The position numbers and the translations under genes were made by a program. A stretch of DNA of 64,000 bases from Doris montereyensis (lineage: Eukaryota > Mollusca > Gastropoda > Nudibranchia > Dorididae). The stretch's first letter is position 1. The number at the start of each line of letters is the position of its first letter. The DNA lies in NCBI GenBank assembly GCA_037039925.1, contig JAXRKP010000131.1:279501-343500 (forward strand), in the 5' to 3' direction. The notes under the pieces were generated by a model, which saw only the letters and a program-made list of their open reading frames with translations, was not told the origin of the DNA and ran no database searches. This document shows, piece by piece, positions 31,919-46,900 of the stretch.

Positions 31919-34900
31919 CTATGGAATAAAAACATGTACAGAAATAATACATAAATACTCTGGTATTATTTAGGCATGGAAGCATTGTAGCTTAATCGTA
32001 GTGTGTCACGACACTGGTTCAAACACCATGACTGGCACACACGAGTCTTCTTCACAACGTTGTACTCTTACTGTTTAGGAAAGGTATTCACTCTACTTTC
32101 CTCAATTGGCTCAGGTGTGAATGAGTACCCAGCTATAGGTAGAGAAAGATCTTGTCAGTGTTAGTATGAAAAGCCTAACAGATGTGTATTACTGGATGCT
32201 GTTGAGGACTGAATGAAATGGTCTGCTGGGGGATGAATGATGTAGTCGATGAGACTGCACTTGTGCAGGGATACGACTATAAATCCATCTTTATCTTACG
32301 CTATTTCAAGGTTTTATCACACTTTTGTCCATAGCTATTGCATGCAGCACGGCTCAGTACGGCGAGTGAAATGTCTTTTCACAAATTATCAAAACCACTG
32401 ATCATCATTGCCAATGCTAACAACATTTCAATAGTTAACCAGCAAATACAACCTGCTATAAATAATGCAAAACATAAATTTCAATATAATTACAAAGCAG
32501 ATAGCAGACAGAACTTTTAATATCTTGGAAGGCCAGAAACAAACAATACTACATAATAAGAGAAAATGGAAAATGCACAATTACATTTTCACTAAGGCAT
32601 CAGAACAAAATCATTGAAAAATAAACTAACCACGGTAAAACATTTTTATACATCTAAAATTAAAATCATTAAATGTGAGAAACTTAAAATAATAGATTTG
32701 GTTGTAAATTTCCTAAATTATGACATCTTGTTGGGTTTTTGCCACAAATTGAGCCAATACTTATTCATCTCCAAGTTGTTTTTTCTCACCATGCCAATAT
32801 CACAGCTTAGGCATTCTAGATAGATCTCTGTATCTAGACTCAAGGTTTCTATGGAAAAGTAGTCTAATTCAACTAACGATCATATGAAAGTGTGCTGTGT
32901 AGTCGTGTGTGTGTGTGTGTGTGTGTGTGATGAGAGAGAGTAAGGGGAGAAACCCCACAAGACATTGTATATTTGGTATCTTCCCAATTCTGTTCACTCT
33001 GAATGTTGTGAAATGTATATTATGCCACAGAGAGAGACATTGAATAAAGAAGGAAGTTTTACTAACAGGACTCATACTCTAAACATTGTTGTTCAATCCT
33101 TCCAAATAGGTCTTGTATTGTACCATCAACATTTGTGTATTAATTAAGAACACTATAATTAGTGTAACAATAGATCTAGATCTAGTAGAGATCTATTCTT
33201 TTAACTAATGCTTACCTAGATCTATTGTTACATCCTTTACAAATTTTTTATTATTATTATTGAATTATTATCAGTTAGCCTACATTTGCATAGAAATCCT
33301 GTTTGATGTCAATCTATTCTAGATAGATAGATAGATAGATAGTGTGTGTGTGTGTATGTATGGAAGAGAGAGAGAGAGAGAGAGAGAGAGAGAGAGAGAG
33401 AGAGAGAGAGAGAGAGAGAGAGAGAGAGAGAGAGAGAGAGAGAGAGAGAGAGAGAGAGAGTAAGAGAAAGAGAAAGAGAGAGAGAGAGAGAGAGAGAGAG
33501 AGAGAGAGAGAGAGAGAGAGAGAGAGAGAGAGAGAGAGAGAGAGAGAGAGAGATTTAATATCTACAGATAATGGGTTGAATTACTAATAACATATAAAAG
33601 TTGGAACCTTTAAGGGAAGAAGACAGTTGTAATATAATAATATTATCCCTCAGAAACCAACAAGCACAATCCAACGCTGGCTTTCATAATTTGAACTTCA
33701 AAGAAAAACTTACAATTTTGACAGGTGAGACAATCTAAACCGAACCACAGAAAGAGATGTAAAATGAATTGGGAGCTGACAATGGATAAATATGTGCATG
33801 GCTCAGCACGGCGAGTGAATGTCTTTTCATAAGGTATCAAACCCACTGATCATCATTGCCAAAACCATACAACTCTGATGGGAGAACAGTTTCAAACCAT
33901 TTCCAACTAGAATCCAACACAAACAACAATCAAAAAAACTGGTAAAGCTATGTGTGTAAGTTGACATGTATCAGAAATTTTATAATTACAGTAAAACAAC
34001 TTTTCAATCTCTAATAAGGAAATAAAACACTGAAAACCTGAGCTTACCCAAAAACCCCAAGACAACATACAACAATCGCACCAAAGACAAACCAGTAAAC
34101 GTGCCAAAACAATTGGTCATTATTGCCAAAAAAGCTGTAAGAGCAATTCCCAAATAATTTTGTTCAAGCCATAACACACTATCAAAAACTGGTGATGTTG
34201 TTTGACATAAACCATAATTTATTTAAGATCACATAACACTGACAAATGAGCATAATCTCCACAACCCTGACAAACACGTGAAAACACTCACAAGACAAAG
34301 ACACTCTTACAGTACAGCTTTCAGCCTTTAGGATTGTCATTGATTTTACAAAAAGTAAATCTGTTTTTATACAGCATCTATAAAGTACTAAAACTGCAGA
34401 TAAGATAACTCTACTGTTTCTCAAGGCTAGAAATAAACGTAATGTAATATAAGCAAATCAAAAGCCAGCCGCTTTCGATTCTCAATCCCAGTCTGATACA
34501 CCACACTGTCCATTGTCATTTGAAAGCAACCACTCAAAGAGTTTTTTCTCTTTCCATCACAACAACCGAGCCCCACTTTTTAAAGTTATGTACCTCAAAT
34601 CTCACTATGGAACTCCTTTAGAAAATTTCTCCTTATCAATTTTCCCGATCTGATCGATCCCAAATTCTTTATGACAAGTTAATTACACTAAAATGTGATC
34701 AATTAAAACAGACTTCTCCAACTTAGAAAATGCTATAAACATACAAGGATATGATAAATGGGCAGGGCTCAGCACGGCGAGTGAATGTCTTTTCACAAGG
34801 TGTCAAATCCACTGATCATCATTGCCCATGCTATTTTATAACTTCCTGATATGTGAAGTCATGTACAATTTCATAAAGGATATTTCCCTGGATAGAGAGA

Positions 34901-43900: not shown

Positions 43901-46900
43901 TCCTTTTTTAATCCGGGGCAATCATAATATAAATTACTCAAATGTGACCATCCAATCCGATTCTCTATCAACACAAGCAAATGCCTTTTCACAATGAATA
44001 AACAGTACAGGAACCGTTACATTATATGTATGTCTCATATAAAAATGTACACATCCTGTGCATGGCTCAGCACGGCGAAAGTGAATGTCTTTTCATAAAG
44101 AATCAAATCCACTGATCATCATTGCCAGAAAAAGCTTCACAATATTCACAAATAATTTTGTTCAAGCCATAACACACTACCAAAGACTGGTGATGTCATT
44201 TGACATGTATCAAAACTTATATTACATAACACTGATATATGGGCACAATTTTCCCAGCCCGACAAACACATCAAGACACCCACAACACAAAGACAATTCT
44301 TACAATACAACTTTCAGCTTTTAGTAAATGTCATAGATTTTACGAAAGGTATATATCTGTTATCATACAGCATCTATGCAGTACTATGCAAATTAGACAC
44401 CTCGACTCAGTTTTTCACCACACTTAAGACTTGTCTTCAGTCTCTCATCATCTCAGATTGAAGAAAGTGACAGAAAGCCATCTTATACAGTCCCGAAATG
44501 CTGCCGAAACTGAAAGCAACCTCTCAAAGACAGACCTATTTCTTGTTTCCACCACTAAAACGAGCCCCACTTTTTAAATCTTATGTACCTTGGATGTGCC
44601 CCACAGTGGAACTCCTTACAAATCTTTAGGAAATTAACTCCACTAAAATGTGATCAATTCAAACAGACCTCTCCTAAACTTAGACAATATACTCTAAATA
44701 TACAAGGATATGATAAATGAGCATAGCTCAGCACGGCGAGTGAATGTCTTTTCACAAGGTGTCAAATCCACTGATCATCATTGCCCATGCTATTTATAAA
44801 CCCCTGATGTGAGAAAAGTCTGGTGTACAATTTCCAAAGGGACACTTTCCTGGATGGAAAGAAACTACCAAAAAAAAAAGAAGCAAAAAACAAACTGTGA
44901 ATACATGTCACTTTTCATGTACAAAAAGTTCTATAATAATATCAAATAAAACTAGACAAATCTGCACACCCAATATCACCCCCCCCCCTAAACACACCAA
45001 CAAGACAAGAATATGGCTCTTATAGTACTTGTAGTACAATTTTCAATTTAAAGTTTGTGATTATACTAATGCCTGTCAACCCTAAAGAATCATTGGGTTC
45101 TTTTTTAATCCGGGCAATCATAATATGTAAATTACTTAAATGTGACCATCCAATCCAATTCTCTATCAAAACCACAAGCAAATGCCTTTTCACAATGAAC
45201 AAATAGTACAGGAACCGTTACATTATATGTATGTCTCATATAAAAATGTACACATCATGTGCATGGCTCAGCACGGCGAGTGAATGTCTTTTCACAAGGT
45301 GTCAAATCCACTGATCATCATTGCCCAGGCTATTTATTGTATAACGCCCTGATATGGGCAAAGTCTAGTTTACAACATCCAAAGGGACACTTTCCAAGGG
45401 AGAAAGAACCCCCCCCCCCCCCCAATACCTAGCTAATGAAAACATAATGTAAGGGTAGAAAGAATACCACCCCCCCCCAAAAAAAACCCACCCTAGCTAA
45501 TGAAAACATAATGCAAGTTTACATGTACCAGAAATTCTATGATATCAAATTAAGCTAGATACAACAGCGTACTAAATATACCCCTAATAAAGACGTACAT
45601 GAAAAAAAAAGCTCTTATAACACAATTTTCAATTTAAAGATTGTGATTATACTAATGGCTTTTCACAATGAACAAACAGTACAGGAATCATAACATTATA
45701 ATATGTATGTTTCATATAAAAATGTACACATCATGTGCATGGGCTCAGCACGGCGAGTGAATGTCTTTTCACAAGGTGTCAAATCCACTGATCATCATTG
45801 CCTAGGCTATTTTATAAAGCCCTGATGTGAGAAAAGTCTAGTGTACAACATCCACCGGGACATTTTCCCGGGTAGAAAGAACCCCCCCCCCCCCCCCATT
45901 ATGTAAATTACTATAATGATCATCTAAGCTAATTCTCTATCAAAACCACAAGCAAGTGCAATTTTAAAGTGAGCAAACAGTACAGAAACACTATACGATT
46001 GTCTTTCATTTAAAAATGTACATATTATGAGCATGGCTCAGCACGGCGAGTGAATGTCTTTTCACAAAGAATCAAATCCACCGATCATTGCCAGAAAAGC
46101 CTTGAAAGCAATTCACAAATAATTTTGTTCAAGCCAGAACAGATTGTCAAAGACTGGTGACGTCATTTGATATGTACCAAAACTTATATATTACATAACA
46201 TTACAAATGGAGACCCCCCCCGAAACTTTTATGCTTGGTTCGTTGAAATGTACCTATCCACAACAATATGCGGGAATCTCAGATGAAACAACAAGTTGAA
46301 AGACATGCGAAAGAAAGGAACAAAAGAAGTAGGACCCATCAGCAGCAACTGTCAACCGCCAACAAAGAGGAAGCAGTTAGATGAAAGATAAAGGAAAGAT
46401 GACCTACCAGCAGTTTCCTCCAACCAACCACCCCACCCCGTTCAACTGCAAAATAAAACCTTTGACACAACATCACCAAACATAACCGATGTCATAATTT
46501 GAAATAGTACAGGAGCCGTTATTGAAGGTGAGAATTACATCTAAATCTCTGAAGATTATAATCAAATTCAAGTAATAGTGTCACATCTTTTTTCTTCTTA
46601 AAAGCAGAGACAAAAAGTTAACTTACTTCAAATATAAGTTCCTTTGTTCTCCAGAACCACAATCCAGAAATCTTGGCGTCCTTGTCTTGACCATGAATCA
46701 CCATACTACCAAAAGCATGCTTTCTGAGTTTCTCCAGCCTCTGAAACATTCCTGAGTTAACAGGATGAACAGAAAATTTATAAAATGTTAACTGAGAGAA
46801 CCATATGGAAACCGCAGACTTCTTTAAATAATTGAATACATTCTAAATAGATCAAAAAGGTCTATGGAGTACAGTAGTAACCAAACCGTCTAAATGCCTG

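Follow-up and report, generated by a model that had tools for sequence, protein, structure and literature searches.

Small nucleolar RNAs (snoRNAs) of animals lie predominantly one per intron and are freed by debranching and trimming, and introns with two snoRNAs can give rise to snoRNA-ended long non-coding RNAs (sno-lncRNAs) when trimming halts at the outermost small nucleolar ribonucleoproteins (snoRNPs), according to PMC11028025. The SNORD115 and SNORD116 arrays of mammalian 15q11-13 contain 30-50 tandem box C/D copies (PMC3349704), and several snoRNAs in one intron or precursor are described for Chlamydomonas, plants and Drosophila. When a stretch of 64,000 nt from the nudibranch Doris montereyensis (assembly GCA_037039925.1, contig JAXRKP010000131.1, here C347, positions 279,501 to 343,500; referred to below as the window) was analyzed, a ~61-nt core, GGCAATGATGATCAGTGGATTTGACACCTTGTGAAAAGACATTCACTCGCCGTGCTGAGCC, was observed 21 times in the last intron of eEF1G. 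All copies are on the minus strand between 46.1 and 32.3 kb, which is the sense strand of the host gene. If an intronic cluster is defined as at least two snoRNAs per intron in host sense, there are 21 in eEF1G and 2 in a mucolipin gene on the same contig.

We consider it likely that the array is best explained as a family of a single box C/D guide snoRNA, repeated in tandem within an intron. When a covariance model (R1) was built from 19 of the copies (46100, copy 1, and 37067, copy 16, were excluded), the same 21 places were recovered in the window, all with E-values of 8.9e-8 or lower, and no match was found on the opposite strand of the window at E <= 5. Such a model had been proposed as a check in the first-pass annotation of this DNA, and the 21 copies described there, all in sense orientation and spaced by 0.3-1.5 kb, were recovered in full (measured spacing between neighbours, 293-1448 nt). 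Three weak extra R1 matches were also observed (34083-34132, E 0.37; 45166-45204, E 0.51; 43968-44002, E 0.68), and the first of them is possibly a decayed relic of a snoRNA copy. With at most one mismatch allowed, 22 matches to the motif GGCAATGATGA were counted in the window, where 1.24 would be expected, and none of 100 shuffles reached 22. These matches consist of 20 array copies, the possible relic and a site at 60585, beyond the intron. Box C, the 12-nt guide and box D are all intact in 18 of the 21 copies. A single truncated copy had been noted earlier; copy 37067 is indeed truncated, without guide and box D, but two more copies are damaged, namely 46100 (broken box C) and 44131 (2-nt insertion inside the guide).

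Guide snoRNAs of the box C/D class have box C (RUGAUGA) toward the 5' end, box D (CUGA) toward the 3' end, a terminal stem that unites the two, and an antisense element of about 5-20 nt ahead of box D or D' that pairs with rRNA or snRNA; they are stable RNAs bound by fibrillarin, NOP56, NOP58 and 15.5K. Box C (AUGAUGA) and box D (CUGA) were each found in 20 of the 21 copies and together in 19, in the order that the annotation had described, and a C-to-D distance of 51 nt was measured for 16 of 20 copies. The core also includes a C'-like box, U(G/A)UGAAAAG, and a conserved stretch, UCAGUGGAUUUGA, which may hold a D'-like box. The 12-nt guide is UUCACUCGCCGU, and one base separates it from box D. 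A terminal stem was expected from the first inspection; GGC/GCC or GGC/GCU closes 18 of 19 aligned copies, copy 36604 being short of one pair. Several copies have longer outer duplexes, the strongest of which is predicted in 32417. Taken from the sequence, these features support the assignment of the copies to a putative box C/D guide snoRNA family. The exact 21-nt guide/box D pattern gave no matches in viral and none in prokaryote sequence collections.

When mean identity was computed in 15-nt bins over all pairs of 20 copies (190 pairs), the bins of the core reached 87-100 % and all others 28-63 %, and the drop fell within one bin at both ends. Core identity was 87-100 % among 24 listed pairs of the 190, and those listed pairs with 18-40 % identity in the upstream flank had cores of 87-95 % and downstream flanks of 20-84 %. 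Seven comparisons with alignable flanks, which were hand-picked and are mutually non-independent, gave substitutions of 0-3 % in the core vs. 9-28 % in the flank (Fisher p 3e-9 to 0.006). The core value was lower than the flank value in six within-array comparisons (p 3e-9 to 0.006), and the mucolipin copies differed from the array at 4/121 core and 149/865 flank positions (p 6e-6). Both measures bear out the earlier remark that the core is more conserved than the spacers. Cores that are held while flanks decay fit selection on an RNA, and the contrast is the pattern expected of an RNA cut from the host transcript. In the upstream bins (-65 to -6), mean identity was 39-58 %, within the 28-63 % range observed elsewhere outside the core, and no shared upstream element was found there. 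Thus, separate promoters are unlikely.

Mostly neutral tandem duplication, with one or two working copies and the rest as passengers, would agree with the 3 damaged copies among 21 and the possible relic. It would also agree with the spacers of some adjacent blocks, which are 90-96 % identical, so that such young copies say little. However, the low substitution of the cores relative to the flanks in the seven comparisons and the intact guide and boxes in 18 of the 21 copies make this explanation quite improbable. Gene conversion that homogenises the cores, with no selection on an RNA, is the least likely of the explanations considered. Tandem arrays do convert and the copies are close together, but conversion tracts are not expected to end at one 61-nt unit every time, and mean identity drops to 28-63 % over a single 15-nt bin at each edge of the core, from 87-100 % inside it. 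Moreover, the cores of the copies ~243 kb off in another gene are likewise more conserved than their flanks.

A target for the guide was sought in ribosomal RNA (rRNA). When the assembly was searched with AGTAACGGCGAGTGAA, one place was returned, on contig C567 (L030 1500-1552, around 74509-74524), where a ~50-nt 28S-like piece lies within unrelated DNA. We take this fragment to be from the 5' region of 28S, judging from the human and yeast ends. Since only this fragment was returned and it is embedded in other DNA, the assembly appears to lack the ribosomal DNA itself. The core is antisense over 12 nt to the 28S-like stretch ACGGCGAGUGAA, one base upstream of box D, and 4 of 20,000 shuffled cores reached a 12-nt complement in the same 110 nt. 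The human 28S and yeast 25S ends presumably contain these 12 nt too, beginning at positions 88 and 89, respectively. By the guide rule, the fifth base upstream of box D marks the methylated residue. The residue of 28S predicted by this rule to be 2'-O-methylated is the second G within ACGGCGAGUGAA and within ACGGCGAG, at about G91 in the human count. For the D'-side stretch, pairing with 18S was considered and dropped. In PMC8351944, no domain I modification is given for yeast, Am389 and Am391 (helix 24) are given for human, and helix 11 has two 2'-O-methylations in Arabidopsis and none in yeast or human. The predicted 28S modification is away from the helix 24 sites named there for human domain I (PMC8351944).

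With about 20 copies in one intron, trimming alone would free no inner copy, and it is reasonable to conclude that plain exonucleolytic trimming cannot release the inner copies. A matrix-based donor scan of the 14.7-kb intron gave 11 sites scoring > 6.5, none recurring once per unit. One true eEF1G exon end scores 5.5, so the scan can miss weak donors. Mini-exons between the copies were rejected because no strong donor recurs, with the reservation that weak donors can escape the scan. In the case of enclosing stems for RNase III-like cleavage, 3 of 19 units were more than 2 standard deviations (s.d.) below shuffles and no stem was common to all. The three better-folding units (44790, 43621 and 36604) belong to a group of six copies that end in GCTATGCTC. 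Long enclosing stems of this type were also rejected, as 16 of the 19 units were not more than 2 s.d. below shuffles.

Two further explanations concern the processing. A hidden non-coding host gene, with each copy in a mini-intron between unannotated exons as in SNORD115/116, would solve the problem of release. It would agree with the predominance of one snoRNA per intron in animals (PMC11028025), and its donors, if as weak as the true exon end at 5.5, can escape the scan. However, the 11 donor-like sites > 6.5 in 14.7 kb do not occur once per unit and the spacer types are not mutually conserved, unlike shared exons, which makes a hidden gene very unlikely. Alternatively, the main product could be one long intron remnant, capped by C/D snoRNPs at both ends and studded with others, that is, a giant sno-lncRNA, which could hold fibrillarin/NOP proteins or other factors. 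Two-snoRNA introns are reported to be trimmed only to the outermost snoRNPs (PMC11028025), no strong donor splits the array per unit, and the units share no enclosing stem that an RNase III-like enzyme could cut (3 of 19 units more than 2 s.d. below shuffles). With such a remnant, selection would be expected to bear mainly on the outer copies, yet the inner copies are equally intact, the broken box C is that of the copy at the 5' extreme (46100), and the mucolipin pair is kept too. We regard a giant sno-lncRNA as unlikely. All these explanations overlap with that of a guide snoRNA family, and their likelihoods do not sum to one.

For the guide snoRNA family, internal endonucleolytic cleavage is our best guess as the release route. 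The eEF1G gene, which serves translation and should be strongly transcribed, would supply the transcript, snoRNP proteins would bind each C/D unit, and each unit would be freed from the excised intron by internal cleavage and trimming. The many copies would raise the snoRNA dosage per host transcript, and the family would guide 28S 2'-O-methylation at the predicted G, or chaperone folding there.

Several observations weigh against a guide snoRNA family. No Rfam family was found at the gathering threshold in the window or in L015-L017 of C347. Relaxed settings gave 28 matches, of which SNORD29 was the best at 26.3 bits vs. 48 required, and SNORD60, SNORD53/92 and snoR1 were also weakly matched. 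We rejected a family identity on these grounds, because the 28 matches are scattered weak C/D matches. SNORD29 and the other C/D families have a generic C/D layout in common with the core, with weak similarity, and in the SNORD29 alignment, which scores below the gathering value of 48, the guide bases before box D land in an insertion. Stem covariation was no higher than in shuffles (155 or 85 of 500 reached the observed values), because the stem hardly varies. The last copy (32417) lies 424 nt from the 3' splice site; vertebrate C/D snoRNAs are typically ~70 nt from it. As for the target, Rfam gave no at-threshold call on the ~50-nt 28S-like fragment, and if the whole of the rRNA is taken into account, a 12-nt match would arise by chance with a probability on the order of 1 %, leaving aside the requirement for the right register. 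Another 12-nt complement of the core is found at ~57829, in another eEF1G intron, and it falls outside the guide; a 12-nt match as such is thus not rare in 64 kb. Finally, gene conversion could contribute to core identity. The host transcript itself was considered as a target and rejected; this intronic complement outside the guide and a 9-nt exon match were taken as chance.

The intron that carries the array runs from 46626 to 31919 on the minus strand (14,708 nt, phase 0). Its donor, GAA/GTAAGT at 46627/46626, and its acceptor, AG at 31920-31919 with the last exon beginning at 31918, were read from the sequence. Both bordering exons match Physella eEF1G by tblastn, and the joined exons gave Pfam EF1G (7e-38). 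The intron limits and the host gene named in the first-pass annotation thus hold. The closest listed proteins (65-68 % identity) are from the gastropods Plakobranchus, Physella, Elysia, Candidula, Bulinus and Biomphalaria. Another eEF1G exon (VLDPAF...RKSYGN, window 53455-53325, minus strand) has a one-base frame change in the assembly, which is either a sequence error or a sign of a damaged gene copy, and no eEF1G match was found by tblastn in C347:1-200000. A long GA/CT microsatellite lies inside the intron at 33305-33578, between copies 33865 and 32417.

Table 1 Features of the putative snoRNA array in eEF1G, in window coordinates
Feature	Position	Strand	Basis and remarks
Last coding exon of eEF1G	31769..31918	minus	ends DSNIFK stop; tblastn, Pfam EF1G on joined exons
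Penultimate eEF1G exon	46627..46751	minus	ends ELIFE; sequence, tblastn
Last eEF1G intron, carrying the array	31919..46626	minus	splice-site sequence; tblastn on bordering exons
snoRNA copy 1 (46100), box C broken	46027..46097	minus	core match, covariance model
snoRNA copy 2 (45807)	45733..45807	minus	core match, covariance model
snoRNA copy 3	45257..45330	minus	core match, covariance model
snoRNA copy 4 (44790)	44717..44790	minus	core match, covariance model
snoRNA copy 5 (44131), 2-nt insertion in guide	44056..44131	minus	core match, covariance model
snoRNA copy 6 (43621)	43548..43621	minus	core match, covariance model
snoRNA copy 7	42768..42841	minus	core match, covariance model
snoRNA copy 8	42109..42182	minus	core match, covariance model
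snoRNA copy 9	41556..41629	minus	core match, covariance model
snoRNA copy 10	40786..40859	minus	core match, covariance model
snoRNA copy 11	40170..40243	minus	core match, covariance model
snoRNA copy 12	39620..39693	minus	core match, covariance model
snoRNA copy 13	38855..38929	minus	core match, covariance model
snoRNA copy 14	38163..38236	minus	core match, covariance model
snoRNA copy 15	37727..37800	minus	core match, covariance model
snoRNA copy 16 (37067), truncated, without guide and box D	37008..37067	minus	core match, covariance model
snoRNA copy 17 (36604), one stem pair lost	36531..36604	minus	core match, stem alignment, covariance model
snoRNA copy 18	35727..35800	minus	core match, covariance model
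snoRNA copy 19	34758..34831	minus	core match, covariance model
Possible decayed relic	34083..34132	minus	weak: 14.5 bits, E 0.37
snoRNA copy 20 (33865), spacers on both sides match no other spacer	33792..33865	minus	core match, covariance model, BLAST
snoRNA copy 21 (32417), strongest predicted terminal duplex, 424 nt from 3' splice site	32343..32417	minus	core match, covariance model

The spacers are of recurring types. Blocks repeat every ~1.9-2.0 kb with about three copies per block, and BLAST gives about 80-96 % identity between spacers that correspond. The array would have grown through exchange of such blocks. The copies nearest the 3' end (33865 and 32417) have spacers unlike any other (BLAST) and may be the oldest.

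The R1 scan of C347 covered positions 1-200000, the window and 463401-498119. Two further copies were found about 243 kb away, at C347:68390-68462 (97.8 bits) and 67572-67644 (95.2 bits), within a ~1.4 kb stretch (C347:67565-68947; L016 7565-8947), a diverged duplicate of a portion of the array that is about 76 % identical to window 35720-36986. They lie in host sense in an intron of 1,805 nt (69091-67287), whose bordering exons join in frame and, along with further exons, match mucolipins (TRPML) in the PDB. Because two copies are present in this duplicate, the family has been copied between introns: a two-copy block appears to have moved between the eEF1G and mucolipin introns, in a direction that we infer. 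This putative second locus of the same snoRNA is new here. Two more R1 matches in C347:1-200000 (L019 7353-7415 and L013 4616-4672; 21 bits, E 0.027 and 0.034) are either chance or decayed relatives. Across the genome (513 Mb), GGCAATGATGA was found at 812 places, and the pattern read backwards at 156. Among 100 of the 812 places, 21 are on C347 (19 in the window and 2 in mucolipin) and none of the other 79 is a snoRNA copy. A dispersed repeat context, TGAAAAGGCAATGATGAT, lies behind 20 of these 79 (in L001, L002, L005, L007, L033, L035, L038, L042-L044 and others).

With about 20 copies that seem to be constrained, the eEF1G intron offers a natural experiment on the release of inner snoRNAs, and models of processing rest on the rule of one snoRNA per intron that PMC11028025 gives for most animal snoRNAs. 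The array also bears on whether selection acts on the dosage of a single rRNA guide and, together with the mucolipin locus, on how snoRNAs colonise new host genes. More tentatively, we propose an amplified single-guide array that would load ~20 snoRNPs on each eEF1G transcript, direct a lineage-specific 28S methylation (~G91, domain I) and spread to introns in blocks. The intron would then either require a dedicated internal cleavage or give a long RNA studded with snoRNPs, for which the literature searched offers no described counterpart.

No such array in eEF1G was found in the literature searched, which included few subscription papers, and neither was one guide at such scale in one protein-coding intron. 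The sno-lncRNAs (SLERT and LNC-SNO49AB) are similar in having more than one snoRNA in one intron (PMC11028025), but they carry two, whereas the eEF1G intron carries about 20. With SNORD115 and SNORD116, the eEF1G array shares the tandem C/D copies and the tandem growth. Those arrays hold one copy per intron, whereas here ~20 copies of an rRNA-type guide stand in one intron of a protein-coding gene, and a copy-per-intron layout was not observed, there being no donor > 6.5 per unit in a scan that can miss weak donors. The clusters of Chlamydomonas, plants and Drosophila resemble the eEF1G array in having multiple snoRNAs per intron or precursor. However, they hold mostly different snoRNAs, while in eEF1G one guide is repeated about twenty times.

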